A stretch of 64,000 bases of DNA, taken from Streptomyces sp. PCS3-D2 (GTDB taxonomy: Bacteria > Actinomycetota > Actinomycetes > Streptomycetales > Streptomycetaceae). The notes under the pieces are model-generated. The model saw nothing but the letters and a program-made list of their open reading frames with translations, searched no databases and was not told where the DNA came from. Each line of letters opens with the position of its first letter. Within the stretch, counting starts at the first letter, position 1. The stretch covers positions 2,911,001 through 2,975,000 of the forward strand of contig NZ_CP097800.1 in the NCBI RefSeq assembly GCF_000612545.2. Reading direction: 5' to 3'. Shown here piece after piece: positions 25,953 through 37,086 of this stretch. The position numbers and the translations under genes are program-made.

Positions 25953-27313
25953 AGCTCCCCCAGCCTGCGGATCACCGGGGCGACCCGCTGCACACCGTGC
26001 CGGTACGCCCCGCGGGCGGCCTCGCGCAGGTGGGCGCGGAGCCGGCGGCGCAGCCGGGACCCGTCCTCCTCCTGCCGCGCGGTGCCCGGCAGCGGGGTGC
26101 CGTCGGGCGCGAGGCGGTGCCGGGCGAGGATGCCGGGCAGGTATCCGGGCGCGGTGGTGAGCGTGTAGTAGGGCGTGGGCGGGGGCAGCCGGGTCGCGGC
26201 GAGCAGCCCGGCGGCCTTGGCCCGGGCGAGGGCGTAGGCGTCACCGCTCGCGCCGGCCCCGGCGGCGGCCGGGCCGGCGGCGCCTGCGGCTGCCGGGCCC
26301 GGAGCGGCGGTCGGCCGGACGCCCTGGGCGGCCAGCCAGACCGGGTCGCCCTCCGGGAGGAGCCCCGAGTCGAGCTGGTCCCAGGAGGCCAGGCAGCCGG
26401 AACCGAGGAAGTGGTGGTTGCCGAGGGCCTCGCGGACACCGAGGTCGGTGAGGACGGCCGTCGGGATGGAGCGGTGCAGGGCCTCCAGGGCGGCCGTGGA
26501 GGAGACGGTGACCAGCAGGTCGGTGCCGTCCAGCACCTCGCCCATGTTCCCGTACACCAGGCGGCAGTTGGCCGGCAGTCCGCCGGGGATCTTCTCCGCG
26601 AGCCGCTGGTACGGCTGTTCCTCCAGGTGCGTGGTGTGTTCGCCGGGCTTGCTGCGCAGCTTGATCAGCACTTCCCGGTCGGGGTGCTTGCGGGCGTGGC
26701 CGGCGGCCCGCTCCAGCAGGTAGGCGCGGTCGGCTCGGCTGTCGGGCACGGAGGGCTGCACGGCGAAGACCACCGTGTGGGGGCGGCTCCCGGCCGGCTG
26801 GTAGGGCGCTCCGCCGAGGAAGGGCAGCGCGGTCTCGGTGACGGCGCCGGCGTCCGCGCCGACCCCCTCGTACACGGCGCGGAAGCGCTCGGCGTCGTGG
26901 CGGGAGTTGGCGAGGACGAGGTCGGCGCCGTGTCTCAGCAGCAGCCCGTCGGCGAGCTTCTCGTACACGACACCGACGTACCCGGTGACCAGTACGGGGC
27001 GCGTGGCGGGGGCCGGCCACAGGGCGCGGGCCCCGTGCAGGACCGCTTGGACGGCACCGCCGACGAGCGCGAGGACGACCACGTCGTAGTGCTCGCGTGC
27101 GATCTCGGCGAGGAACCCGGCGCAGGTCACCTCGGTCGGCCGGTCGGTCTCCACCCCGACCTCGCCGAGCTGGCGGGCGGTGGGCGTGGCCCGACCGCGC
27201 AGCAGGTATCCGGTGAGCCGGTGGTCGGGCACGAGACGGCGGGCGGTGGTGACGCCCCATTTCCATCGCGTGTCGGAATCGGCGAGTACGGCGACGCGTT
27301 TGCGTTCTGGCAC
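25949..27313 (-). CDS. DUF6716-type putative glycosyltransferase
   Basis: The protein has 454 residues from GTG 27313. It opens KRVAVLADSDTRWKWGVTTA, the hallmark of this Streptomyces family. A GT-B-like layout follows: VTGYVGVVYEKLADGLLLRH, GADLVLANSRHDAERFRAVY, VVFAVQPSVPDSRADRAYLL, EVLIKLRSKPGEHTTHLEEQ and TDLLVTVSSTAALEALHRSI. The last resembles the S-S-T-A donor-site loop of CDP- and CMP-sugar transferases. A TACGTT -10 box lies 7 nt before the start, so the message may be leaderless. It is the first gene of the leftward half of the glycopolymer cluster. Confidence 0.75.
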   Translation of the reverse strand: MPERKRVAVLADSDTRWKWGVTTARRLVPDHRLTGYLLRGRATPTARQLGEVGVETDRPTEVTCAGFLAEIAREHYDVVVLALVGGAVQAVLHGARALWPAPATRPVLVTGYVGVVYEKLADGLLLRHGADLVLANSRHDAERFRAVYEGVGADAGAVTETALPFLGGAPYQPAGSRPHTVVFAVQPSVPDSRADRAYLLERAAGHARKHPDREVLIKLRSKPGEHTTHLEEQPYQRLAEKIPGGLPANCRLVYGNMGEVLDGTDLLVTVSSTAALEALHRSIPTAVLTDLGVREALGNHHFLGSGCLASWDQLDSGLLPEGDPVWLAAQGVRPTAAPGPAAAGAAGPAAAGAGASGDAYALARAKAAGLLAATRLPPPTPYYTLTTAPGYLPGILARHRLAPDGTPLPGTARQEEDGSRLRRRLRAHLREAARGAYRHGVQRVAPVIRRLGEL

Positions 27314-27402
27314 GCGGCAGAACGTATTCGGCGTTTTCGGTGATCGGCCCAACGAGCGCACAACAGCGGGTTAACAAAGCGTCGACTGAATGCGAAAGCG
27401 TA

Positions 27403-27414
27403 CGGGTTAACCCG
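27403..27414. promoter_or_regulatory. Palindrome in the divergent glycopolymer promoter
   Basis: CGGGTTAACCCG is a perfect 12-bp palindrome. A second GGGTTAAC lies at 27368-27375. Both fall between the divergent glycosyltransferase genes starting at 27313 and 27490 and may bind a regulator of the whole cluster. Confidence 0.45.
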
Positions 27415-27489
27415 CCCGCCCCGCGCCGTTCACATGAAATCCGCATCCGGGCCACGGTGAATGACGGGCGGCGCCCTAATCTCTCGCGG

Positions 27490-28470
27490 GTGCCCAAGCT
27501 CTCTGTCGTCGTGCCGTTCTACAACGTGCAGACATACGCGCCGGACGCCCTGAAGAGTCTCGAACTGAACGCCCGTGGGGATTTCGAGTTCCTGCTCGTC
27601 GACGACTGCTCGACGGACGGGACACCCGACCTGCTGGAACGAGCGGCGGGCGAGCTGCCCGGGGCGGTGCACCTCAGACACGGAAGCAACGGCGGCCTGG
27701 CGACCGCCCGGAACACCGGGCTGGACGCGGCCCGCGGCGAGTACATCGCCTTCCTGGACGGGGACGACTGGATGGCCCCCGGCCATCTGGCCCGGATGCT
27801 GGCCGCCATAGAGGCACTGGACTGCGATTTCATCCGAACCGACCATGTGCGGTGCACGGGCCGGACGCGGAGCGTGCAGCGGGTCCCCTTCGGCCCGCAG
27901 GCCGTCGTCGCCGATCCGCGCGGCGCGATCCTGCCCGCCGACCGGGCGACCTCGGTGGACTACCCCTACGCCTGGGCCGGGATGTACCACCGGCGGCTGC
28001 TGGACCGTGGCCTGCTGCACTTCACCGACGGGCTGCGGACGGCGGAGGACCGGCCGTGGATCTGGCGGCTGCACCGGGAGGCCGGGTCCTTCGCCGCAGT
28101 CGGACTGCCCGGAATCTTCTATCGGCGCGGTGTTTCCACCTCGTTGACGCAGATCAGGGACGAGCGGCAGCTCGATTTCATCCGGGCATTCGACGAGGTG
28201 CTCGCCGGTGTCGCCGCCGACCGGGAATCCGATCTGCTGATGCCGAAATCCGTACGAACATACTGCGCCATTATCGCGCACCATTTCGGATCCATCGAAA
28301 GGTACGAGCCGGCCGTGGCCAAGAAACTCCGCCTGATGAGCGCGGCCGCGCTCGGCCGCATGCCCCAGGACGTGCTCGACCAGGCCCTGGAATCGATGGA
28401 CGCCGAACGCTCCGCGCTCCTGCGCCGTCTGCGCGGCGGCCGCCGCACCCTGTCGGGGGCGACCGTCTGA
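27490..28470 (+). CDS. Family 2 glycosyltransferase
   Basis: The protein has 326 residues from GTG 27490. A TAATCT box (27477-27482) lies 7 nt before it, so the message is probably leaderless and upstream in-frame codons are not translated. GT2 motifs: PKLSVVVPFYNVQTYAPDAL, FLLVDDCSTDGTPDLLE, NGGLATARNTGLDAARGEYI, AFLDGDDWMAPGHLARML (the D-x-D region), then GLRTAEDRPWIWRLHREAGS (catalytic base region). Cytoplasmic, using a nucleotide sugar. It overlaps the next gene by one base (TGATG), giving a two-gene operon. Confidence 0.9.
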   Translation: MPKLSVVVPFYNVQTYAPDALKSLELNARGDFEFLLVDDCSTDGTPDLLERAAGELPGAVHLRHGSNGGLATARNTGLDAARGEYIAFLDGDDWMAPGHLARMLAAIEALDCDFIRTDHVRCTGRTRSVQRVPFGPQAVVADPRGAILPADRATSVDYPYAWAGMYHRRLLDRGLLHFTDGLRTAEDRPWIWRLHREAGSFAAVGLPGIFYRRGVSTSLTQIRDERQLDFIRAFDEVLAGVAADRESDLLMPKSVRTYCAIIAHHFGSIERYEPAVAKKLRLMSAAALGRMPQDVLDQALESMDAERSALLRRLRGGRRTLSGATV

Positions 28471-29804
28471 TGCTCACGCAGATCTTCCTGGCCTCCACCC
28501 TCTACGGGGCCGCCACCCTCGCGGCGGGCGTCGACGCGGGCCGCTACCCACCCGCGGGCCGCCGGATCCTGCTGACCAGCAACCACTCCGCCACCGCCGA
28601 GGTGGCCCCGGGAGTGGCCGACATGCCGGGTTTCGCCGCCGTGCGCACGCGCTTCGACGAGGTGCTCGACTGGAACGCCGTGATCGAACCGCAGCACCCG
28701 AGCACCTGGGCCCCGCGCGCCGAGGACGTCCCCATCTGGGAACGGCACCTGCGCGCGCTGTGGGGGCTCGGCGATGACCGGGTCGAGCTGATCGTGGAGT
28801 CCCTCCAGGTACCGCCGGCCCAGTCCCTGTGCCGGGTCTTCCCCGGCGCGGCGGTCGACGTCTACGCCGACGGGCTGATGAGCTACGGGCCCACCCGCTT
28901 CCGCCTCGACCCGCAGCTCGGGATGCGGGTGCGGCGGGTGCTCCATCTCGATCTGGTGCCCGGCCTGCGGCCGCTGCTGCTGAACGAGTTCGGGGCGCGG
29001 CCGGAGGTGGTACCGACGGAGTCCTTCCTGAAGGTCCTCGCGGAGCTCCCGCCGCACGGCCCCGGCCTGGACGACGTCGGGGAGTCCCCGGCCCTGCTGC
29101 TGGGCCAGTACCTCTCGGCGCTCGACCTGATGAGCCCGGACGAGGAGGAGGAGCTGCACGCCTCGATGGTCCGGGGCGCCTTCGCGCTCGGCCACCGCTC
29201 GCTGGTCTTCAAGCCCCATCCCGGCGCACCGGGCGAGTACGCCCGCCGGGCCGCGGCGGAGGCCGAACGGCTCGGCGCCCGGCTCACCGTGGCGAGCGGC
29301 GCGGTCCTGGCCGAGACCCTCTACGGGCAGCTGCGCCCGGCGCTCGTCGTCGGCTGCTTCTCCACCGGACTGCTGACGGCCGCCACGCTGTACGGCCTGC
29401 CCGTCGCCCGTACCGGCACCGAGGCCGTGCTGGCCCGCCTGGCCCCGTACCAGAACAGCAACCGGGTACCGCTGGTGCTGGTGGACTCGCTGCTGCCGGA
29501 CCTGGCGGACGCTGCGGCGGTCCACGCCTGGACTCCCGCCTCCCTGGGACGGGCGGGAACCGAGCGGGCCGGTCTGCTGACCGCCGTCGGGTTCACCATG
29601 CAGCCGCAGGTCCTCGCGGCGCGGCGGGCCGCGGCCGAGGCGTACCTCGCCGCGCACCTGACCCCGGACACCTGGCGGTACTTCACCCGGCGCCGGCTGA
29701 CCGGGCTGGGCCTGCCCGGCGGCATCCCCGCACAGCTGTCGTTCCTGCCGCGCAGCCGGACGGTGCGGCGCATGGCCCGGACCCTGCGCCGCGTCCTCAC
29801 CTGA
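28470..29804 (+). CDS. Polysialyltransferase family glycosyltransferase
   Basis: The protein has 444 residues. Alpha-2,8-polysialyltransferase-like features: an opening TQIFLASTLYGAATLAAGVD, a D/E-rich middle VDVYADGLMSYGPTRFRL, then SLVFKPHPGAPGEYARRAAA (the K-P-H-P motif) and LVVGCFSTGLLTAATLYGLP (the S-T-G/A loop that binds CMP). HP and S/T-rich motifs of this kind are shared by bacterial sialyltransferases GT38/GT52/GT80. Together with the NeuA-NeuB fusion next door this supports a polymer containing sialic-acid-like sugars. The exact linkage cannot be told. Confidence 0.8.
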   Translation: MLTQIFLASTLYGAATLAAGVDAGRYPPAGRRILLTSNHSATAEVAPGVADMPGFAAVRTRFDEVLDWNAVIEPQHPSTWAPRAEDVPIWERHLRALWGLGDDRVELIVESLQVPPAQSLCRVFPGAAVDVYADGLMSYGPTRFRLDPQLGMRVRRVLHLDLVPGLRPLLLNEFGARPEVVPTESFLKVLAELPPHGPGLDDVGESPALLLGQYLSALDLMSPDEEEELHASMVRGAFALGHRSLVFKPHPGAPGEYARRAAAEAERLGARLTVASGAVLAETLYGQLRPALVVGCFSTGLLTAATLYGLPVARTGTEAVLARLAPYQNSNRVPLVLVDSLLPDLADAAAVHAWTPASLGRAGTERAGLLTAVGFTMQPQVLAARRAAAEAYLAAHLTPDTWRYFTRRRLTGLGLPGGIPAQLSFLPRSRTVRRMARTLRRVLT

Positions 29805-29826
29805 GGTGTTCCGGGCCGGGCGGGGT

Positions 29827-29967
29827 CAGCCGACCGCGAGCTTGGCCGCGAAGCCGAGGAACAGCACGCCCGCCGCCGAGGTCGCCCCGGCCGACAGCCG
29901 CCTGCGGCGGCGGAAGGCCTCCGAGAGCCGGGTGCCGCCGAATATCAGCAGCGTCAGGTAGAGGAAG
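29827..29967 (-). pseudogene. Orphaned 3' end of leuE
   Basis: On the minus strand this reads GFLYLTLLIFGGTRLSEAF, RRRRRLSAGATSAAGVLFL, GFAAKLAVG and a stop. It closely matches the last 47 codons of the leuE gene at 33415-34065 (ALYLTALIFFGSRLAAAF...), but with different codons and substitutions. It has no start and similarity stops abruptly at about 29967. It is the original end of leuE, cut off by the 3.6-kb island. Confidence 0.85.
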
Positions 29968-29982
29968 CCAGCGGGGGGCGTG

Positions 29983-30411
29983 TCAGGCTTGGTAGAGGGT
30001 GGGCCGTTCGGCTACCTGATCCGGGGTGAGCCCTTCCACGGTCAGGTTCCCCGTCCATAGCTGGTCACGATTGGCGTACGTCGCATCGAACCGGACCCAC
30101 TTCCCGCCTGGCTCCAACTTCCACCCCTGCTCTTGGAACTGCGCGATGCGGTCGCTGCCACACACGAATGCCCGGGTAGCTTGCGTGAGTACCCATTGGG
30201 CTAGCTCGGTCTCGCTGGCCGTGGGCCGTCCGCAGGTGCGGGCCATCTGCCACAGGCGCCCCCATTCCACCCCGGGAGTGAGCGGGCCGACGATGGCGAC
30301 GTCTCCGATTCTCCGCTCGTCAAGGTGGTGCGTGGCATATCCGAAGACCACGCCGAACATGGCGAATACGGTGACTCTGCTGCTCCCGGTCAGACCCTCA
30401 TCAGATGGCAT
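29983..30411 (-). CDS. Hypothetical island protein, 142 residues
   Basis: ATG 30411 has AAGG about 8 nt upstream. The sequence begins with a short Ser/Thr-rich segment and a weakly hydrophobic stretch (VTVFAMFGVVFGYATHHL), then polar sequence including ARTCGRPTASETELAQWVL and RAFVCGSDRIAQFQEQGWKL. It ends KWVRFDATYANRDQLWTGNL and LTPDQVAERPTLYQA. I recognise no domain. Its stop lies 11-16 bases from the left junction. A terminator-like hairpin stands just upstream, so it has its own promoter or depends on readthrough. Confidence 0.55.
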   Translation of the reverse strand: MPSDEGLTGSSRVTVFAMFGVVFGYATHHLDERRIGDVAIVGPLTPGVEWGRLWQMARTCGRPTASETELAQWVLTQATRAFVCGSDRIAQFQEQGWKLEPGGKWVRFDATYANRDQLWTGNLTVEGLTPDQVAERPTLYQA

Positions 30412-30431
30412 GGGCGGTACCTTTGCTCAGG

Positions 30432-30468
30432 GGAGGACCCGGGTACCTGAGACGTGCCCGGGTCCTCC
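30432..30468. terminator. Hairpin inside the island
   Basis: A perfect 12-bp stem (GGAGGACCCGGG, 30432-30443, with 30457-30468) and a 13-nt loop, between the stop at 30521 and the start at 30411. It probably ends transcription of the Cys-tail gene. TT follows on the plus strand. Confidence 0.65.
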
Positions 30469-30520
30469 TTCATTCGAGCGGATCACGACATGATCCGTGT
30501 GTCGGGGGCGAGTTGGCGGG

Positions 30521-30961
30521 TCAGCAGCCGTCGCCGTCGCCGCAACAGGCCGGCTGGTTGCACTCGGCTGCGGTGCCCCACAGCCGGACGTCGACGTCGA
30601 ACCCGGCAGCCCTGACACGGTCGGCCACGGACACCATCAGTCCGCGCGTCCGCACCTTCGCGTTCGGGGCGTGGTGGACGAAGTAGCCGAACTGCTCCTG
30701 ACACCAGGTGGCGTACTCCTGCGTGTGGAGCATGAACGAGTGCCATCCGGGGTCCACCCGCTCACTGGGCGCCATGTCGTACGCCTTCTGGCTGCCAAGG
30801 ACGTACACGAACGCGATGGCCTGATCCATGACGCGGTCGGCCACGACCCGCTCAAGCCCGTATTCGTCCGCGCAGAACGCGGCGAGGCGCTCGAACAGAT
30901 CGGCGCTGACAAGGTCCCGCCCGTGCCGTAAGGCGCCGGGGCTTTCAACCATGGTCGTCAT
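30521..30961 (-). CDS. GRDP-like protein with cysteine-rich C-terminal tail
   Basis: The protein has 146 residues. AGGAGG lies about 8 nt before ATG 30961. The core matches glycine-rich-domain (GRDP)-like proteins of Streptomyces: LVSADLFERLAAFCADEYGL, VADRVMDQAIAFVYVLGS, then RVDPGWHSFMLHTQEYATWC and FGYFVHHAPN. The V-D-x-x-W-H-x-F-x-L-H-T and F-x-H-H-x-P motifs are the family hallmark. The last 15 residues, AECNQPACCGDGDGC, contain four cysteines and are set apart from the domain. This could be a metal site or a peptide tail for modification; neither is shown. It is the largest unknown cargo of the island. Confidence 0.65.
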   Translation of the reverse strand: MTTMVESPGALRHGRDLVSADLFERLAAFCADEYGLERVVADRVMDQAIAFVYVLGSQKAYDMAPSERVDPGWHSFMLHTQEYATWCQEQFGYFVHHAPNAKVRTRGLMVSVADRVRAAGFDVDVRLWGTAAECNQPACCGDGDGC

Positions 30962-31257
30962 GGTGTGACTCCTCCTGTCGTTGGGCGTCTTGTTGCCCGC
31001 CCTGGCGGGGGGCGGGGTCTGTGTCAGGCCGTGGTGACCCGATGAACAAGGGCGATGTCCCAGAACCCGCGAAGAAAGCGGCTGTGGCCCGCGTTCAGGC
31101 CCGTGTGTGTCATGCACTGCCTGTCGACCTCGGCCACATCGGGGCCGGGCGTAGCAGACCAACCGCATCCCGGATGCAGGCAGCTTGCAGCCACATTGGG
31201 GGGCCGTTTCGGGGTCTCTGATGATCCGATGTTCGGTGTATCGGAGGACTGAGCGCG
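30962..31257. other. Intergenic region inside the island
   Basis: About 300 bp without a convincing gene. It must hold the promoter of the Cys-tail gene on the minus strand, but I cannot pick out a clear -35/-10 pair. A short plus-strand frame (31021-31221) has no ribosome-binding site and no family resemblance. Confidence 0.4.
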
Positions 31258-31446
31258 TCATCGGCGCGACCCGTCCGCGTTCACGCACCGGGTGTGCCAG
31301 TAGGCGACTTTCGGCGGGCCGTCCTTCTGGCCGAGCATTCCCCGCCGGGCGAGCTGGTCAAGGGGAACGGGCATCGTGCACGACGGGCACGTCTCGCATC
31401 TTGCGGTGTACGTCGCGTACTCGAACGTGTCCGTTCTGGTTGCCAT
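31258..31446 (-). CDS. Small cysteine-rich protein, possible zinc ribbon
   Basis: The protein has 62 residues from ATG 31446. It begins MATRTDTFEYATYTARCETC, then PSCTMPVPLDQLARRGMLGQ and WHTRCVNADGSRR. The spacing C-x-x-C-x-x-C ... H-x-x-C could bind zinc. A site GAGGGGTGCGAA precedes the start. The product is too small to classify. It lies 61 bp downstream of the XRE gene on the same strand and may be co-transcribed with it. Confidence 0.55.
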   Translation of the reverse strand: MATRTDTFEYATYTARCETCPSCTMPVPLDQLARRGMLGQKDGPPKVAYWHTRCVNADGSRR

Positions 31447-31507
31447 TTCGCACCCCTCGCCGCTCCGGGAATCGACACCCAATGGTGTCGGGGTGCGGGG
31501 CCAGGTT

Positions 31508-32338
31508 CTAGCCGGTTTCCTGTTCGCGCAAGAAGTCGTCCCGAACGTCTTCAAGCATGGCGCGGGCCTCGCCGCCAGATAGGGCCATGTCGGCGAACCC
31601 CTCAAATTTGTGCAGGTACAGCGCCACATCCCTTGGGTCCGTGACGACTATTTCTGCATGAGTGGTTTCGACAGTCACTGTCCGGTCATCCCGGATCACG
31701 AAGGCGTGATTGGCTATGTCCTGCTGCCGTACGGACAGTGGAACGATTCGAACGTCTATGTGCGGTAGGCGCGATAGAGATACGATCCGGTCAAGCTGCT
31801 CGGCCATTCTGGAAGCCGTCACGATGCGCCAACGGAGCACGGGCTCCGTTATGACGAAGTGGAGTTCCTTGGATGAGTCGTAGAGCGCCTGTTGGCGATC
31901 CAGGCGAGCGCTGATGGTCTTGTTAAGAACATCCTCGCCGAGGTCGTGCCGAGACAGGATCGCTCTGATGTATTCGGGAGTTTGGAGCAGGCCGGGGACC
32001 AAGGCCGGCTGGAAGAGCCTCAGGAGTCCCATTTCTTTCTCAAGGGCTCTCGTCTGCTGTTGAGCCTTGTGCACTCCCATGCGGCGGATGAGCCGCCACG
32101 CCGTGGCCTCCGTTGCCGCTGCCCTGACAGCTTCCAGATACTCTGCCTTGACCTCGTCCGAGACGCCAATGGCTGAGAGGATGCGCTCAACGTCTACGAT
32201 GGACGGAGCGACCTTGGCTGTTTCGATTTTGCTCAGCTTACTTGCGGACATGACGACACTGCGGGCGACGGCTTTGGCCTCCTTACCGGATGCCTGCCTA
32301 AGCGCCCGCAGTGCGGCCCCTAGCTGCCCCTTGTTCAC
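31508..32338 (-). CDS. XRE family regulator with DUF5753 domain
   Basis: The protein has 276 residues from GTG 32338, which overlaps the DUF6879 gene stop (GTGA), so the two are translationally coupled. The N-terminal HTH is GAALRALRQASGKEAKAVAR, SVVMSASKLSKIETAKVAPS, IVDVERILSAIG. The DUF5753 domain begins near residue 85 with EKEMGLLRLFQPALVPGLLQ, TPEYIRAILSRHDLGEDVLN, continues ISARLDRQQALYDSSKELHF, VITEPVLRW and ends ALYLHKFEGFADMALSGGEA. Dozens of paralogues exist per Streptomyces genome, usually beside DUF397 or DUF6879 genes; some act in development. Confidence 0.9.
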   Translation of the reverse strand: MNKGQLGAALRALRQASGKEAKAVARSVVMSASKLSKIETAKVAPSIVDVERILSAIGVSDEVKAEYLEAVRAAATEATAWRLIRRMGVHKAQQQTRALEKEMGLLRLFQPALVPGLLQTPEYIRAILSRHDLGEDVLNKTISARLDRQQALYDSSKELHFVITEPVLRWRIVTASRMAEQLDRIVSLSRLPHIDVRIVPLSVRQQDIANHAFVIRDDRTVTVETTHAEIVVTDPRDVALYLHKFEGFADMALSGGEARAMLEDVRDDFLREQETG

Positions 32339-32856
32339 TCGCCGTACTTCGCCCACCATTCGGAGAATGGCTCGGCATGCGCCATGGCCGTGTCTCGGTA
32401 CACACGGAACTCTTCAGCACGTTCCTCGGGCAGGACGTCAGCCCCGAGGAATGCGCCATCATCTGAATAGATCATGACCGCTGGCGTCAGGCTATCCATC
32501 TGCCAGAAGTCTGGAACCCCTTCCAGCGGGTTCGGCCGTTCGGTGACGTCGAGAATGAAAAACTCTTCGCCCCCTGTGACATTTTTCTGATAGCCCCAAC
32601 CCAATTCGAACCTGAGATATGGCGTGAGGGGTCGGGAGAGGATATGCACCCGATAGATGCGTTTGCCGTTCCGTGTGTGAGAGCGGAGTTCCGACACCCA
32701 CTCTTCGTTATAGTCGGCTGGCTGACGACTACCGGCAAGGAACGCCTGATAGGCGTCCACGTTTCCCGATTTGCTGTAATCGTCCAGCACCTCCAGGCGG
32801 AATGCCTCCTGCTGGAAGGTGTCGAACAGTTCGGCCAGCGTCTTAGAAGTCGCCAC
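32335..32856 (-). CDS. DUF6879 family protein
   Basis: The protein has 173 residues. Family sequence: LAELFDTFQQEAFRLEVLDD, YSKSGNVDAYQAFLAG, EEWVSELRSHTRNGKRIYRV, HILSRPLTPYLRFELGWGYQ, GGEEFFILDV and FWQMDSLTPAVMIYSDDGAF, ending EPFSEWWAKYGE. The family is nearly always next to an XRE/DUF5753 gene, as here, and the pair behaves as one module. The molecular function is unknown. It overlaps the upstream small gene by 14 bp, and codon use is less GC-biased than in the flanks. Confidence 0.88.
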   Translation of the reverse strand: MATSKTLAELFDTFQQEAFRLEVLDDYSKSGNVDAYQAFLAGSRQPADYNEEWVSELRSHTRNGKRIYRVHILSRPLTPYLRFELGWGYQKNVTGGEEFFILDVTERPNPLEGVPDFWQMDSLTPAVMIYSDDGAFLGADVLPEERAEEFRVYRDTAMAHAEPFSEWWAKYGE

Positions 32857-33043
32857 GAAGGCCCTTCCGGATGAGATCGAAGATCAGCTGCTCCGGGATC
32901 TCGACCACGGTTTCGCGTGCGGGAATGTCGAGCCCGTGATCCGTGGGTGTCTCGCCCTGAACCAGCAGCGTGCCCCTGTCGGTCGCGTAGATGGTCGGGC
33001 AGTCTTTGAGGTCACAGGTGCTGACGAGCTTGGTTACCTTCAC
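32843..33043 (-). CDS. Small conserved-type protein upstream of DUF6879
   Basis: The protein has 66 residues. GTG 33043 is chosen because AGGAGG lies about 7 nt upstream; the open frame extends further but without a site. Sequence: KVTKLVSTCDLKDCPTIYAT, DRGTLLVQGETPTDHGLDIP and EIPEQLIFDLIRKGLRGDF. The C-x-x-x-x-C-P near the N-terminus followed by a short beta-rich part is typical of small proteins found before DUF6879/XRE modules in Streptomyces. It overlaps the next gene, so it belongs to the same operon. Confidence 0.7.
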   Translation of the reverse strand: MKVTKLVSTCDLKDCPTIYATDRGTLLVQGETPTDHGLDIPARETVVEIPEQLIFDLIRKGLRGDF

Positions 33044-33228
33044 GGGTTCCCCTCCTGGCGTGCCGTGTCGTGCCTTCCTCGATGCTTCCGACCAACTGAC
33101 CTGAGGCGCAAGGGGTTCGAGTTTCCGGAACAGGAAACCGGCGCCGTCGGCGAACGATGGTCGCGGGACGCCCACGGCCGGGGCCTATAGAGGGTTGGGG
33201 CCTCGGGGCGCCTCAGGACTCACGGCCT

Positions 33229-33405
33229 TCACAGTGAGTGGCTGCCGTTTCCGCCTGCTGGGTGCGCTGACAAGGGCGGAGAACGGGGTGACCTTGGGGG
33301 CTCCTTGGGGGGCCTCTCGGGCAGGCCGAGGGCTCGCAGTGCCTCTTGCTGCTTCCGGAGGCTCATGCGGGCGAACAGCGCCGCAGCGTCGTCGAGGTGA
33401 GACAT
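33229..33405 (-). CDS. Very small hypothetical protein directly after leuE
   Basis: 58 codons from ATG 33405: MSHLDDAAALFARMSLRKQQ, then EALRALGLPERPPKEP and a low-complexity Pro/Ser/Gly tail. GGGGG about 5 nt upstream overlaps the region just past the leuE stop, so it could be translated by coupling to leuE. The first 30 residues look like a real helical segment; the tail does not. It is probably brought in by the island. Confidence 0.45.
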   Translation of the reverse strand: MSHLDDAAALFARMSLRKQQEALRALGLPERPPKEPPRSPRSPPLSAHPAGGNGSHSL

Positions 33406-33414
33406 GCCAACCCC

Positions 33415-34065
33415 CTACGCGCTTGCCAGAGACAGCTTCAGGGCGAACCCCAGGAAGAGCACCCCGGCGGCCGAGGTGGCGCCTGCGCTGAGCCTCTTCC
33501 GGCGACGGAACGCAGCAGCCAGACGAGACCCGAAGAAGATGAGCGCAGTCAGGTACAACGCGCTTGCCAGCTGGAGCAGTACGCCCAGCGTCACGAACCC
33601 CGCGATCGGGTTGGACTCTGACACGAACTGCACGAAGAAGGACATCAGGAAGAGGATGGCCTTCGGGTTGAGGAGGCTGATCAGCAGGGCGCGCCGGTAG
33701 GGGCGTTCGTGCTCGGCCGGACCGGCGGGGGCCGCGGCGCGCGCCTCGTCCCGGTCCCGGCGGGTGCGCCACAGCGCCCAGGCGCCCCGCATCATCCCGA
33801 CGGCCAGCCAGGCCAGGTAGCCGGCGCCGAGGAACTTCACCACGGTGAAGACGAGCGGGCTCGCCCGGAGCAGCGCCCCGGCACCCACAGCGGTCAGGGC
33901 CATCAGCACGGCGTCGCCGGTGAACACTCCGGCGGCGGCCTTGTAGCCCGTGCGCACCCCTCGGCGGGCGGCGACGGACAGCACGTAGAGCGAGTTCGGT
34001 CCCGGCAGGAGAATGATCAGGACGAGGCCGGCGAGGTACGTCGGCAGATCGATGACACCCAGCAT
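33415..34065 (-). CDS. leuE: Leucine exporter LeuE (LysE/RhtB family), hybrid 3' end
   Basis: The protein has 216 residues and about six membrane segments. LysE-superfamily sequence: LPTYLAGLVLIILLPGPNSL, YVLSVAARRGVRTGYKAAAG, VFTGDAVLMALTAVGAGALL, LLISLLNPKAILFLMSFFVQ. These match exporters of leucine and related amino acids. The last about 47 codons (33415-33555) are a divergent copy of the native end that now lies at 29827-29967. The gene is therefore a functional hybrid restored by the island. Downstream of the join, codons such as GCA and AGA-type choices are less GC-biased. Confidence 0.88.
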   Translation of the reverse strand: MLGVIDLPTYLAGLVLIILLPGPNSLYVLSVAARRGVRTGYKAAAGVFTGDAVLMALTAVGAGALLRASPLVFTVVKFLGAGYLAWLAVGMMRGAWALWRTRRDRDEARAAAPAGPAEHERPYRRALLISLLNPKAILFLMSFFVQFVSESNPIAGFVTLGVLLQLASALYLTALIFFGSRLAAAFRRRKRLSAGATSAAGVLFLGFALKLSLASA

Positions 34066-34110
34066 GGGCAGGAGTGTCCCATGGGGACGCCCCTGACAGC
34101 CCCGGGGGTC

Positions 34111-35691
34111 TCACCATGTGGAACCAGTGGGCTCGTACGTCCCCCACACCTCCCGCAGCACCCCGCAGACCTCCCCCACCGTGGCCCGCGCGCGCAGCGC
34201 TTCCTTCATCGGGTACAGCACGTTCGCCGTTCCCCCCGCCGCCTCCCGCAGCGCCCCGAGCGCCGCCGCCACCGCCGCCCCGTCGCGCTCCGCCCGCAGC
34301 CGCGCGAGCGCCGCGCGCTGCCGCTCCTCGATCGCCGGGTCCACGCGCAGCGGCTCGTACGGTTCCTCGCGCTCCAGCGCGAAGCGGTTGACGCCGACCA
34401 CCACCCGCTCCCCGCTGTCGGTCTCCCGCGCGATGCGGTAGGCGTTCCGCTCGATCTCCGTCTTCTGGAAGCCGGCCTCGATCGCGGCCACCGCCCCGCC
34501 CCGCTCCTCGACGCGCCGCATCAGGTCGAGGACCGCCGCCTCCAGTTCGTCCGTCATCCGCTCCACCGCGTAGGACCCGGCGAAGGGGTCCACGGTGTGC
34601 GGCACGTCCGTCTCGTACGCGAGGACCTGCTGGGTGCGCAGCGCGAGGCGGGCGGACTTCTCCGTCGGCAGCGCGATCGCCTCGTCGAAGGAGTTGGTGT
34701 GCAGCGACTGGGTCCCGCCCAGGACCGCGGCCAGGGCCTGCACGGCGACGCGCACGAGGTTCAGCTCGGGCTGCTGCGCGGTGAGCTGGACCCCTGCGGT
34801 CTGGGTGTGGAAGCGCAGCATCATCGACTTCGGGTCGCGCGCCCCGAACTCCTCCCGCATGACGCGGGCCCAGATCCGCCGGGCGGCACGGAACTTCGCG
34901 ACCTCCTCCAGCAGGGTGGTGCGGGCCACGAAGAAGAAGGAGAGCCGGGGCGCGAACGCGTCGACCGCCATCCCTGCGGCGAGGGCGGTACGGACGTAGG
35001 CGATGCCGTCGGCGAGGGTGAAGGCCACCTCCTGCGCGGGCGAGGCGCCGGCTTCGGCCATGTGGTAGCCGGAGATGGAGATGGTGTTCCACCGGGGGAT
35101 CTCGGCCCGGCAGTAGCGGAAGGTGTCGGCCGTCAGCCGCAGCGAGGGTTCGGGCGGGAAGATGTAGGTCCCCCGGGCGATGTACTCCTTCAGGACGTCG
35201 TTCTGGATCGTCCCCGTCAACCGCGCGCCCGAGATGCCCTGTTCCTCCGCGACCAGCTGGTAGAGCAGCAGGAGCAGGGCGGCGGGCGCGTTGATCGTCA
35301 TGGAAGTGGAGACCCGGTCGAGGGGGATCCCGTCGAACAGCGTCCGCATGTCGTCGAGCGAGTCGACGGCGACCCCGACCTTGCCGACCTCGCCGTGGGC
35401 CAGGGGCGCGTCGGAGTCGTGGCCCATCTGGGTCGGCAGGTCGAAGGCGACGGACAGCCCGGTGCCGCCGCCGGCGATGAGCTGCCGGTAGCGGGCGTTG
35501 GACTCGGTGGCCGTGCCGAAGCCGGCGTACTGGCGCATGGTCCACGGCCGACCGGTGTACATGTTCGGATAAATCCCCCGGGTGTAGGGGAAGTCCCCCG
35601 GTGCACCCAATTGGACCTCGGGGTCCCATTCCGTCAGATCACCCGGCCCGTAGACCGGTTCGACCGGGATTCCGCTCTCCGTGCGTGCCAT
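34111..35691 (-). CDS. Methylmalonyl-CoA mutase-type catalytic subunit, without B12-binding domain
   Basis: The protein has 526 residues from ATG 35691 (GGAGG 10 nt upstream). Motifs: [134 protein letters not shown] and [17 protein letters not shown]. The Tyr of R-Q-Y-A-G-F and the Arg of A-R-G-T-Y match positions that favour methylmalonyl-CoA over isobutyryl-CoA. The chain ends before the cobalamin-binding domain, so a separate small subunit is required. None is encoded nearby. Confidence 0.9.
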
Positions 35692-35870
35692 GTGACGAAG
35701 TCCTCCGTAGAGCAACCGGGCCCGGGGCTGGTACAACCTTGCCCGCGCACCGCTTCTCAAGGCTGCGGACGGTTGCCGGTCACGATGGCGCAACATCCCG
35801 GAACCCTGTGCAACTCTCCACGCGCGCCAGACATCACCTAGATACACGACGTAGAAACCGGGGGACTGCA

Positions 35871-36749
35871 ATGCAGCGCCAGAGAGCCATAATCCGCACG
35901 ATCGGGGTCGCCACCGCCGTCGCGCTCGCCGCGACCGCCTGCGGTCCGCAGAAGACGGAGTCCGCCGGCTCCTCCTCCGCGGCACCGTCCTCGCCCACGG
36001 CGGGCACCACCCCCGAAGCCTCCCCGTCCACCGACGACAAGCCCGGCGAGCCCTCGGCATCGGCCTCGGCGTCCGCCTCCGCCTCCGCCTCCCCGTCGGC
36101 CTCGCCTTCGCCCTCGGTGAAGCAGATCATGGCCAACGGCGACGAGAGCGAGCAGGTCCGCGAGCTTCAGGCCCGGCTGAAGCAGCTCAAGCTGCTCACG
36201 GTGACGCCGACCGGCTTCTACGGCTCGAAGACCACGGCCGCGGTGAAGTCCTTCCAGTCGAAGAACGGCCTGGATGCCACGGGCGGGGTCGACGCGAAGA
36301 CCTGGAAGAAGATCCAGAGTTCCAGCAAGAAGCCCACGGCCGACGAGCTGCGCCCGCCGACCGTCAACGAGGTCGCGGCGCCGGACCCGCGCTGCATGAC
36401 CGGCCGCGTCATGTGCATCAGCAAGGAGAGCCGCACCCTCGCCTGGATGATCGACGGCAAGGTCGTCTCGACGATGGACGTCCGCTTCGGCTCGGAGAAC
36501 ACCCCGACCCGCGAGGGCGTGTTCAACGTGGGCTGGAAGGCCAAGGACTGGACGTCGACGATCTACCACACGCCGATGCCCTACGCGATGTTCTTCAGCG
36601 GCGGCCAGGCGGTCCACTACTCCGCCGACTTCGCGGCCCGCGGCTACAACGGCGCCTCGCACGGCTGCGTGAACGTGCGGGACAAGGCCAAGCTGTCGAA
36701 GCTCTTCGACGACGTGCAGGTCGGCGACAAGGTGGTCGTCTACTGGTGA
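35871..36749 (+). CDS. Lipoprotein L,D-transpeptidase with peptidoglycan-binding domain
   Basis: The protein has 292 residues. A signal peptide with lipobox LAATAC is followed by about 55 residues of Ser/Ala/Pro linker, including an alternating Ala-Ser run. A PG-binding-1 domain comes next: [40 protein letters not shown]. The YkuD domain ends [20 protein letters not shown] then CVNVRD, supplying catalytic His and Cys. It would act on peptide stems outside the membrane. GGGGGA about 5 nt before the ATG. A very strong terminator follows. Confidence 0.93.
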
Positions 36750-36817
36750 TCCCGCCGAGGGTGCCGCCGGAACCCCGGTTCCGGGCCCCGACCGCGCGGC
36801 CGGCCGCCGGCCGGTGA

Positions 36818-36887
36818 AACGCGACAGGCCGTCCCCTTCGCAGTCCGGTCGTACCGGCGGACCGAGAAGGGGACGGCCTGTCGCGTT
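36818..36887. terminator. Long hairpin after the L,D-transpeptidase gene
   Basis: A 22-bp perfect stem (36818-36839 with 36866-36887) encloses a 26-nt loop that can itself pair. It lies about 70 bp past the stop. Confidence 0.8.
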
Positions 36888-36927
36888 GAGCGGCCGTCCC
36901 GCCGATGGGTCGGGGTGATGGAGTGAG

Positions 36928-36966
36928 GGCGCGGGCAGGGCCGGGGGAACGTGCCCCGCCCGCGCC
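36928..36966. terminator. Second hairpin, probably ending the sigma/anti-sigma message
   Basis: GGCGCGGGC (36928-36936) pairs with GCCCGCGCC (36958-36966). It lies 120 bp past the end of the leftward anti-sigma-like gene. The rest of 36888-37086 shows nothing clear. Confidence 0.5.
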
Positions 36967-37086
36967 GGTTGCGCAGAGCCCAGGGGTACGGGGGGAACCC
37001 CGGCTCATGCGCGGCCGATGACCAGTCGGCTCGCTTAGTACTGCGCCGCCGATTCGAAAAGTGTTACAGGCAGGTCAGCGCATGTG

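Follow-up and report, generated by a model that had tools for sequence, protein, structure and literature searches.

A probable decayed copy of a Streptomyces large-serine-integrase element family in leuE, with a predicted crossover in codon 145 and an element-borne replacement gene end

Mobile elements that insert near the end of a protein-coding gene have been described in several bacterial groups. In Escherichia coli, the element e14 inserts in the 3' part of icd and brings a gene end of its own, while the native end persists as a 163-bp stub (PMC6379469). In the Firmicutes, the serine-integrase integrative and conjugative elements and integrative and mobilizable elements act within protein genes, are bordered by very short direct repeats, and have targets that are counted as disrupted; at rumA, the target gene and the integrase gene swap their 3' parts, so that the target receives a new end in a changed frame (PMC4701971 and PMC5704250). 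In Streptomyces, the mobile elements of SCO2603 are small, variable in content, and associated with one protein gene, while the bacterial attachment site (attB) of phage phiJoe lies 74 bp from the end of its target gene, where insertions are possibly tolerated (PMC5311408). The present analysis concerns a stretch of 64,000 nucleotides from Streptomyces sp. PCS3-D2 (contig NZ_CP097800.1, positions 2,911,001 to 2,975,000; hereafter the window), taken from a 7.6 Mb genome in which an island lies within leuE, a gene for a LysE-family exporter. Based on sequence comparison, we consider it very likely, with a probability of about 0.92, that this island is a decayed copy of a family of Streptomyces elements, which insert into codon 145 of leuE, at a GT dinucleotide, through a large serine integrase and carry a replacement for the gene end that they displace.

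The original prediction, made from the letters of the window, described a LysE end on the minus strand and an intact exporter with a divergent end some distance away, and both descriptions were borne out. Positions 29827-29967 (minus strand) encode FLYLTLLIFGGTRLSEAFRRRRRLSAGATSAAGVLFLGFAAKLAVG, a LysE-family C-terminal end, and the intact protein of 216 aa is encoded at 33415-34065 (minus strand; Pfam LysE, E=3.6e-44), its end sharing 61.6% nucleotide identity with the stub. The nativeness of the two ends was assessed with 20 leuE loci, chosen and fetched from the matches in 296 genomes of the genus. Ten of these loci (L044-L053) had an uninterrupted leuE with a native-type end, and none of these empty-site genomes carried both leuE ends, the outcome expected under the predicted insertion. 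The other ten (L034-L043) had an element-type end, with a native stub in seven, integrase sequence in seven, and both in six. Identity to G042, the nearest relative with an empty site, was 94.9% for the leuE head of the window and 94.4% for its stub, but 61.7% for the present tail. The phylogenetic trees, in which many inner branches are weak, gave the same picture. In the head tree (25 heads), the window was sister to G042 among the empty sites (support 99/93), and in the tail tree (34 tails), the window stub was again sister to G042 (98/87), whereas all 16 element-type tails, including those of the window and of a free circular contig (L096), formed one clade (100/99). This conflict between the head and tail trees, as predicted, speaks for insertion. 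By this comparison, the native gene end is the one left in the stub at 29827-29968, and the present leuE end is foreign and was brought by the element; the tail tree contradicts the possibility, raised with the original prediction, that the end at 33415-33555 is the native one. The head tree requires at least two changes of leuE occupancy, which implies that the insertion arose repeatedly or was lost. Purifying selection acts on the carried end, with a median ratio of nonsynonymous to synonymous substitution rates (dN/dS) of 0.29 (91 pairs), compared to 0.17 for native ends (45 pairs). Its divergent codons are explained by a lower G+C content at third codon positions (0.75-0.88 vs. 0.96-1.0 in native ends).

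No recombinase had been visible at the locus, which had been read as a sign of a non-autonomous or decayed element. This holds for the window, where no open reading frame (ORF) of an integrase of ~525 aa was found at 27000-37000 and whose genome gave no integrase match at 1e-60, but a recombinase is nonetheless present in the relatives. In the intact ones, as anticipated for longer versions of the island, a protein of ~525 aa adjoins the native stub and matches the Resolvase (PF00239, E=8.3e-25) and Recombinase (PF07508, E=2.9e-17) domains. This protein is a large serine integrase and is likely the inserting enzyme. A search of 393 genomes of the genus yielded 49 with an integrase match at 1e-60, eight of them at 91-100% identity and the rest at 58% or less. 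In the same 393 genomes (own genome included), a DNA query of the type of the left attachment site (attL) was matched over its full length in 12 among the matches listed, 11 of them at 86-100% identity and one (G010) at 75%; the other listed rows corresponded to the leuE end only. All eight genomes with the 91-100% integrase belong to these 12, in which the attL-type leuE end is followed by a small ORF, hyp71. For seven of the eight high-identity integrases, a fetched locus placed the gene at leuE; in the remaining genome (G373), the integrase and attL were on separate contigs. Likewise, all nine loci from named genomes with an integrase identity of at least 84% show attL and/or the right attachment site (attR) at leuE, the carriers at this gene including S. 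altiplanensis, S. flavidovirens, S. lucensis, and S. zinciresistens. A search for the integrase beyond Streptomyces, in 294 genomes of the order, gave 18 with a match at 1e-100, all within one of nine genera, three of them at 92-95% identity. In view of this family, the window copy is a remnant and not a working member.

More distant integrases were found at other genes. At three further loci, integrases of 49% identity adjoin the end of another gene, which is SCO2606-like. In L062, L063, and L064, the protein end next to the integrase (53% identity) bears, by eye, a resemblance to a family-10-like glycosyl hydrolase; the integrase clade therefore seems to target several protein-gene ends.

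The attachment (att) sites compared have the core TTCTTCGTGCAGTTCGT in common, with single-base departures in the decayed copies L035, L037, and L038. The crossover is predicted at the GT dinucleotide of this core, located in codon 145, the V of FFVQFV, and at positions 33632-33633 of the window. The attP site of L096 forms an imperfect dyad centred on this GT, in which 15 of 24 positions match, the best among 8,896 centres in that contig. For the family, the consensus of the P half-site (nine copies) and that of the P' half-site (16 copies) match at 16 of 24 positions, compared to 6 of 24 for the arms of attB. The window retains an attL with the FFVQFV core and an element-type end of 72 codons (33415-33639). 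At the other side, no attR core was found in the window, and the distal junction at about 29969-29982, which had been taken for a recombination junction, looks like a deletion edge. The extent of the replaced part, first put at 47 residues, is 72 codons.

From the crossover codon onward, the element supplies 72 codons plus a stop codon in frame, starting with VQFVSESNP, while native genes read VQFVDPxYAYP. The SESN codons, TCAGAGTCCAAC, sit in the P' half-site and mirror the integrase-side P half-site, which is CCAGAATCCAAC in L036 and L086. In a second lineage (L091), the P' arm CGTTCCAGAATCCAAC encodes VPESNP. One and the same stretch thus serves both as integrase site and as coding sequence, and the distinctive first residues of the foreign end would therefore be imposed by integrase recognition. 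Gene-end replacement is already known from e14 and icd, and the leuE case is more general than first claimed. The end carried by e14, which uses a tyrosine integrase, differs little from that of its host, in contrast to the strongly divergent end of the leuE element, which uses a serine integrase. The exchange at rumA changes the frame, whereas the homologous end of the leuE element restores the protein in frame.

Seven copies have both exact cores, and their core-to-core distance ranged from 3.4 to 10.0 kb; one of the seven, L034, contains transposase-like genes, and L037 measures about 2.8 kb by position. In L034 (8062-16056), two transposase-like ORFs were observed, one of them within the integrase region, and the native leuE stub was out of frame. 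A free form is represented in IMG/VR by the contig L096, whose 8,946 bp include a terminal repeat of 127 bp and thus correspond to a circle of 8,819 bp. It holds an unsplit attP, the integrase, hyp71, and matches to a GntR-type regulator and an HNH nuclease, along with genes for an HK97-type major capsid protein and a small terminase. Among 13 integrase-bearing loci, the capsid match is nearly full in four (L036, L086, L087, and L096), fragmentary in two (L035 and L038), and missing in seven, and a small terminase is found in two. The capsid and small terminase genes suggest that some members may be phage satellites. Capsid-forming phage-inducible chromosomal islands (PICIs), as well as MulchRoom and MiniFlayer of Streptomyces, have their own capsid, small terminase, and HNH genes within a full head and packaging set, and MulchRoom carries a GntR-type regulator and a tyrosine integrase (PMC10690885). 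The leuE elements are simpler, with matches to a capsid and a small terminase only and with a serine integrase. The set of capsid-forming PICIs (protease, portal, connector, and both terminases) was not found in L096, where scans of 10 ORFs against Pfam and 8 against PHROGs gave the capsid and small terminase only, and where no listed ORF exceeds 199 aa besides the integrase and capsid genes. Element-like blocks were also observed beside what appears by eye to be a fumarate hydratase-like gene in L136 (G188:C87:1-18000) and L137 (G038:C1:2812000-2830000); in L136, the serine integrase is a different one (26% identity) and is accompanied by a capsid gene and by cargo modules shared with the window island.

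The order of features in the window is attL, the new leuE end, a frameshifted hyp71, a 66-aa protein, a DUF6879 protein, and an XRE regulator, as in L034 and L035, followed by the cargo ORFs hyp145 and hyp142, and the island ends 14 bp before the stub. The element carries its 72-codon end at attP, without a leuE head, and insertion thereby joins the host head to this end in frame and strands the native leuE end beyond the integrase. According to the proposed mechanism, the integrase would make the crossover at GT. The fused LeuE would presumably work as an exporter, and hyp71 would be translated behind leuE as the recombination directionality factor (RDF). The simplest history of the window copy would be one deletion, which would have run from the end of hyp142 through the capsid gene, integrase, and attR to codon ~26 of the displaced end. 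After such a deletion, the hybrid LeuE could no longer be exchanged back. In L136, which is not at leuE, the capsid match ends 93 bp from hyp142. A separate insertion that brought hyp142 and hyp145 is less likely than satellite cargo, as both lie beside the capsid gene in L136. The capsid-bearing members, at least, would be satellites moved by a helper phage.

Two explanations that dispense with this integrase or with any element appear highly improbable. According to one, the element recombined within GTCAGGTA through an 8-bp overlap of the kind seen in tyrosine recombinases, so that the 47-codon stub would be the whole displaced end. The observation behind it, that GTCAGGTA stands in the same frame at both places, is correct (positions 29953 and 33548, encoding Y-L-T), but the role at a junction that had been ascribed to it was not upheld. 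The sequence occurs five times in the window, and the GT crossover lies 77 bp before it. Upstream of it, the intact copy is already element-type, reading SESNPIAGFVTLGVLLQLASA compared to DPSYAYPALSFLVLGGLLQTGSF in G042, and the stubs of intact relatives begin with the FFVQFV core. Among the 14 main-type element tails, moreover, that of the window alone has T at this position; the other 13 have S, encoded within TACCTGTCT, and lack the 8-mer. As an att core, GTCAGGTA was therefore ruled out, and its two copies are homologous Y-L-T codons. Equally improbable is a tandem duplication of leuE, or the replacement of its end by homologous recombination, without a mobile element. A duplication can give two leuE ends at one locus, but here the identity between the two ends is 61.6%, against about 95% to G042 for the head and likewise for the stub. 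The new end is common to the free circle and to other genomes, where it is followed by hyp71, and in relatives it occurs together with integrase and attP; both variants are already contradicted by L096 and by the conflict between the trees. The empty sites, the integrase-bearing relatives, and the two trees support the original prediction, in which an element with a replacement end inserted site-specifically into the 3' part of leuE.

A serious alternative, although in our view somewhat the less likely one, retains the element as described and takes it for a simple integrative cassette, or for what is left of a larger prophage, rather than for a helper-packaged satellite. The major capsid match in just six of the 13 integrase-bearing loci, the small terminase in two, the existence of copies of 2.8-4.0 kb, and the lack of an obvious portal or large terminase in L096 all agree with it. 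Satellite status is favoured, however, by the sole free circular form being a small genome with capsid and small terminase genes, and by L136, where a different serine integrase at another site is combined with a capsid gene and the same cargo genes. Several points weigh against the insertion and satellite history that we prefer. The cargo ORFs hyp142 and hyp145 are unmatched in the 16 leuE-type loci compared, and their arrival with the original insertion is deduced from L136 and L137, which are located elsewhere. The window itself has neither integrase nor attR, so its history is reconstructed from relatives, none of the same species. Recombination at GT is deduced from the sequences, and satellite status from gene content, no helper phage being known.

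The ORF hyp71 is probably the RDF of the element. It starts 9 nt after the new leuE stop codon in 14 of 16 copies and 8 nt after it in two, and the stop codon mostly lies in TAGGGGG, which, judged by eye, is plausible as a ribosome site. Among ten copies of exactly 71 codons, the median dN/dS is 0.35 (45 pairs). The ORF has 71 codons in all seven copies with an intact integrase in which it is visible (in L087 it lies off the contig), and it is frameshifted in three of the nine copies without one, namely the window, L039, and L095; the window thus has hyp71, but not as an intact ORF of ~71 codons. Its orientation, divergent from the integrase gene across attP, is that of the phiJoe-type RDF. 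In shuffle tests, only 2 of 1000 shuffled sequences scored as well against the RDF-type ORF of the related element L066 and 1 of 1000 against that of L092, and a single profile-profile comparison of hyp71 with RDFs gave E=3.2e-4 (probability 38.8). Other comparisons count against this assignment. Against the proven RDF gp52 of phiJoe, 251 of 1000 shuffles were as good or better (46 of 400 in a separate run), so that direct homology between hyp71 and gp52 was not significant alone; against gp51, L069, and L073, the counts were 335, 211, and 165 of 1000. Sequence support thus comes down to L066, L092, and the profile comparison, and the AlphaFold model, with helices at 3-13 and 16-25 and a short one at 46-49 (mean pLDDT 71.5, pTM 0.34), shows no C-terminal strand. 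No match to hyp71 was found in phage records at E 0.01, and in IMG/VR it was found in L096 again and nothing else (1 of 78 candidate stretches).

The closest described recombination system is that of phiJoe, whose large serine integrase is 48% identical over 529 aa to that of the leuE element. Its proven RDF, gp52 (62 aa), is encoded divergently from int across attP, and the passages of PMC5311408 consulted do not mention a replacement end. Toward gp52, however, the phiJoe attP reads in frame MDTWPQLAPPGGKMLPLTVRQGSDLRERP followed by a stop codon. In eight genomes in which the clade integrase was not found (L125-L127 and L130-L134), the radical-SAM-type gene ends there with MDTxIQxGPTGKKLLPLTV... 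Accordingly, phiJoe (L105), Danzina (L104), and the IMG/VR phage contig L099 carry a replacement end too, as do L066, L073, L069, and L092. The target of phiJoe is an SCO2606-like radical SAM gene with a replacement end of roughly 25-30 codons, compared to 72 codons in the leuE element. The RDF start overlaps the replacement stop codon (GTGA or ATGA) in phiJoe, Danzina, L099, and the integrated L066 and L073, and an RDF-type start follows the stop by 2 nt in L069 and 8 nt in L092. No RDF-type ORF was found in L076, and no tail match in L101.

It is tempting, if rather doubtful at present, to view gene-end rescue and excision control as one device of this serine-integrase clade, in which the RDF is the translationally coupled next cistron of a host operon that exists only when the element is integrated. 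If so, the host promoter, that of leuE or of the SCO2606-like gene in the phiJoe relatives, would determine the time at which the element can excise, and for this purpose the half-site of attP would stay readable as protein. A serine integrase needs a site of only ~50 bp, and in the reports consulted the targets are disrupted, or the insertions are tolerated near gene ends. The replacement plan, with up to 72 codons and the P' half-site used as codons, recurs at a second gene in the phiJoe-type phages and would explain how elements can occupy useful genes. It also provides a rule by which att sites and RDF candidates can be located, the latter as the ORF directly behind the rebuilt stop codon, and it adds another Streptomyces integrase for which attB, attP, and RDF are predicted. 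In the open-licence part of PMC, no paper on a serine integrase with leuE and Streptomyces was found, nor any title or abstract start describing the element; the subscription literature was outside the scope of this search. The coordinates of all features are given in Table 1.

Table 1. Features of the island and its borders in leuE (positions in the window)
Feature	Position	Strand	Evidence and remarks
leuE host part, 144 codons up to the predicted crossover	33634..34065	-	94.9% nucleotide identity to empty-site G042; sister of G042 in head tree, 99/93
attL core region TTCTTCGTGCAGTTCGT, predicted crossover dinucleotide GT 33632-33633	33623..33639	-	common to attB, attP, attL, and attR; dyad centre of attP
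P' half-site of attP, in frame, inside codons V-Q-F-V-S-E-S-N-P	33608..33631	-	dyad partner of integrase-side P half-site, 16/24 consensus positions
Element-borne leuE replacement end, 72 codons from V145 plus stop	33415..33631	-	one clade with the end in free circular L096, 100/99; median dN/dS 0.29, 91 pairs
Remains of attL-side 71-codon ORF hyp71, candidate RDF	33185..33405	-	frameshifted, leaving a 58-codon frame at 33229-33405; second half readable in another frame
Small conserved protein, 66 aa	32843..33043	-	61-63% identity in L034/L035; no NCBIfam match
DUF6879 protein	32335..32856	-	PF21806, E=3.5e-43
XRE-type regulator with DUF5753	31508..32359	-	PF19054, E=1e-37; PF13560, E=1.1e-15; 63-64% to L034/L035, same order behind leuE
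Small cysteine-containing ORF, 62 aa	31258..31446	-	34-46% matches in L136/L137
Cargo ORF hyp145, 146 aa	30521..30961	-	90% identity in L137, 76% in L136; no PHROG or NCBIfam match
Cargo ORF hyp142, 142 aa	29983..30411	-	89% identity in L136, beside capsid gene there; no Pfam, PHROG, or NCBIfam match
Inferred deletion junction, element / leuE stub	29969..29982	.	stub homology from about 29968; hyp142 stop codon 29983-29985; integrase and attR here in intact relatives
Stub of native leuE 3' end, first ~77 nt missing	29827..29968	-	94.4% to G042 native end; sister of G042 in tail tree, 98/87

A tRNA-gene target was rejected, as ARAGORN detected no tRNA gene in the 64-kb window. Searches for a known phage or plasmid carrying the island gave partial matches only. 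When the cargo of the window was scanned with PADLOC and NCBIfam, the XRE regulator alone was matched, with NF058600 as the best hit (E=5.3e-30), far under the curated cut-off. The G+C content of segments in the island interior was 0.59-0.68, compared to 0.70-0.77 in the adjoining DNA. On the stub side, the neighbour of leuE at 28473-29804 is an alpha-2,8-polysialyltransferase-like gene (PF07388, E=1.2e-22), which also matches near leuE in most fetched loci, including nine of the ten empty ones (none was reported in L053). Finally, an ORF split over two frames was observed on the minus strand at 31024-31288, resembling by eye the intact ORFs at L039:3291-3512 and L035:8821-9201; this broken ORF is another sign of decay.

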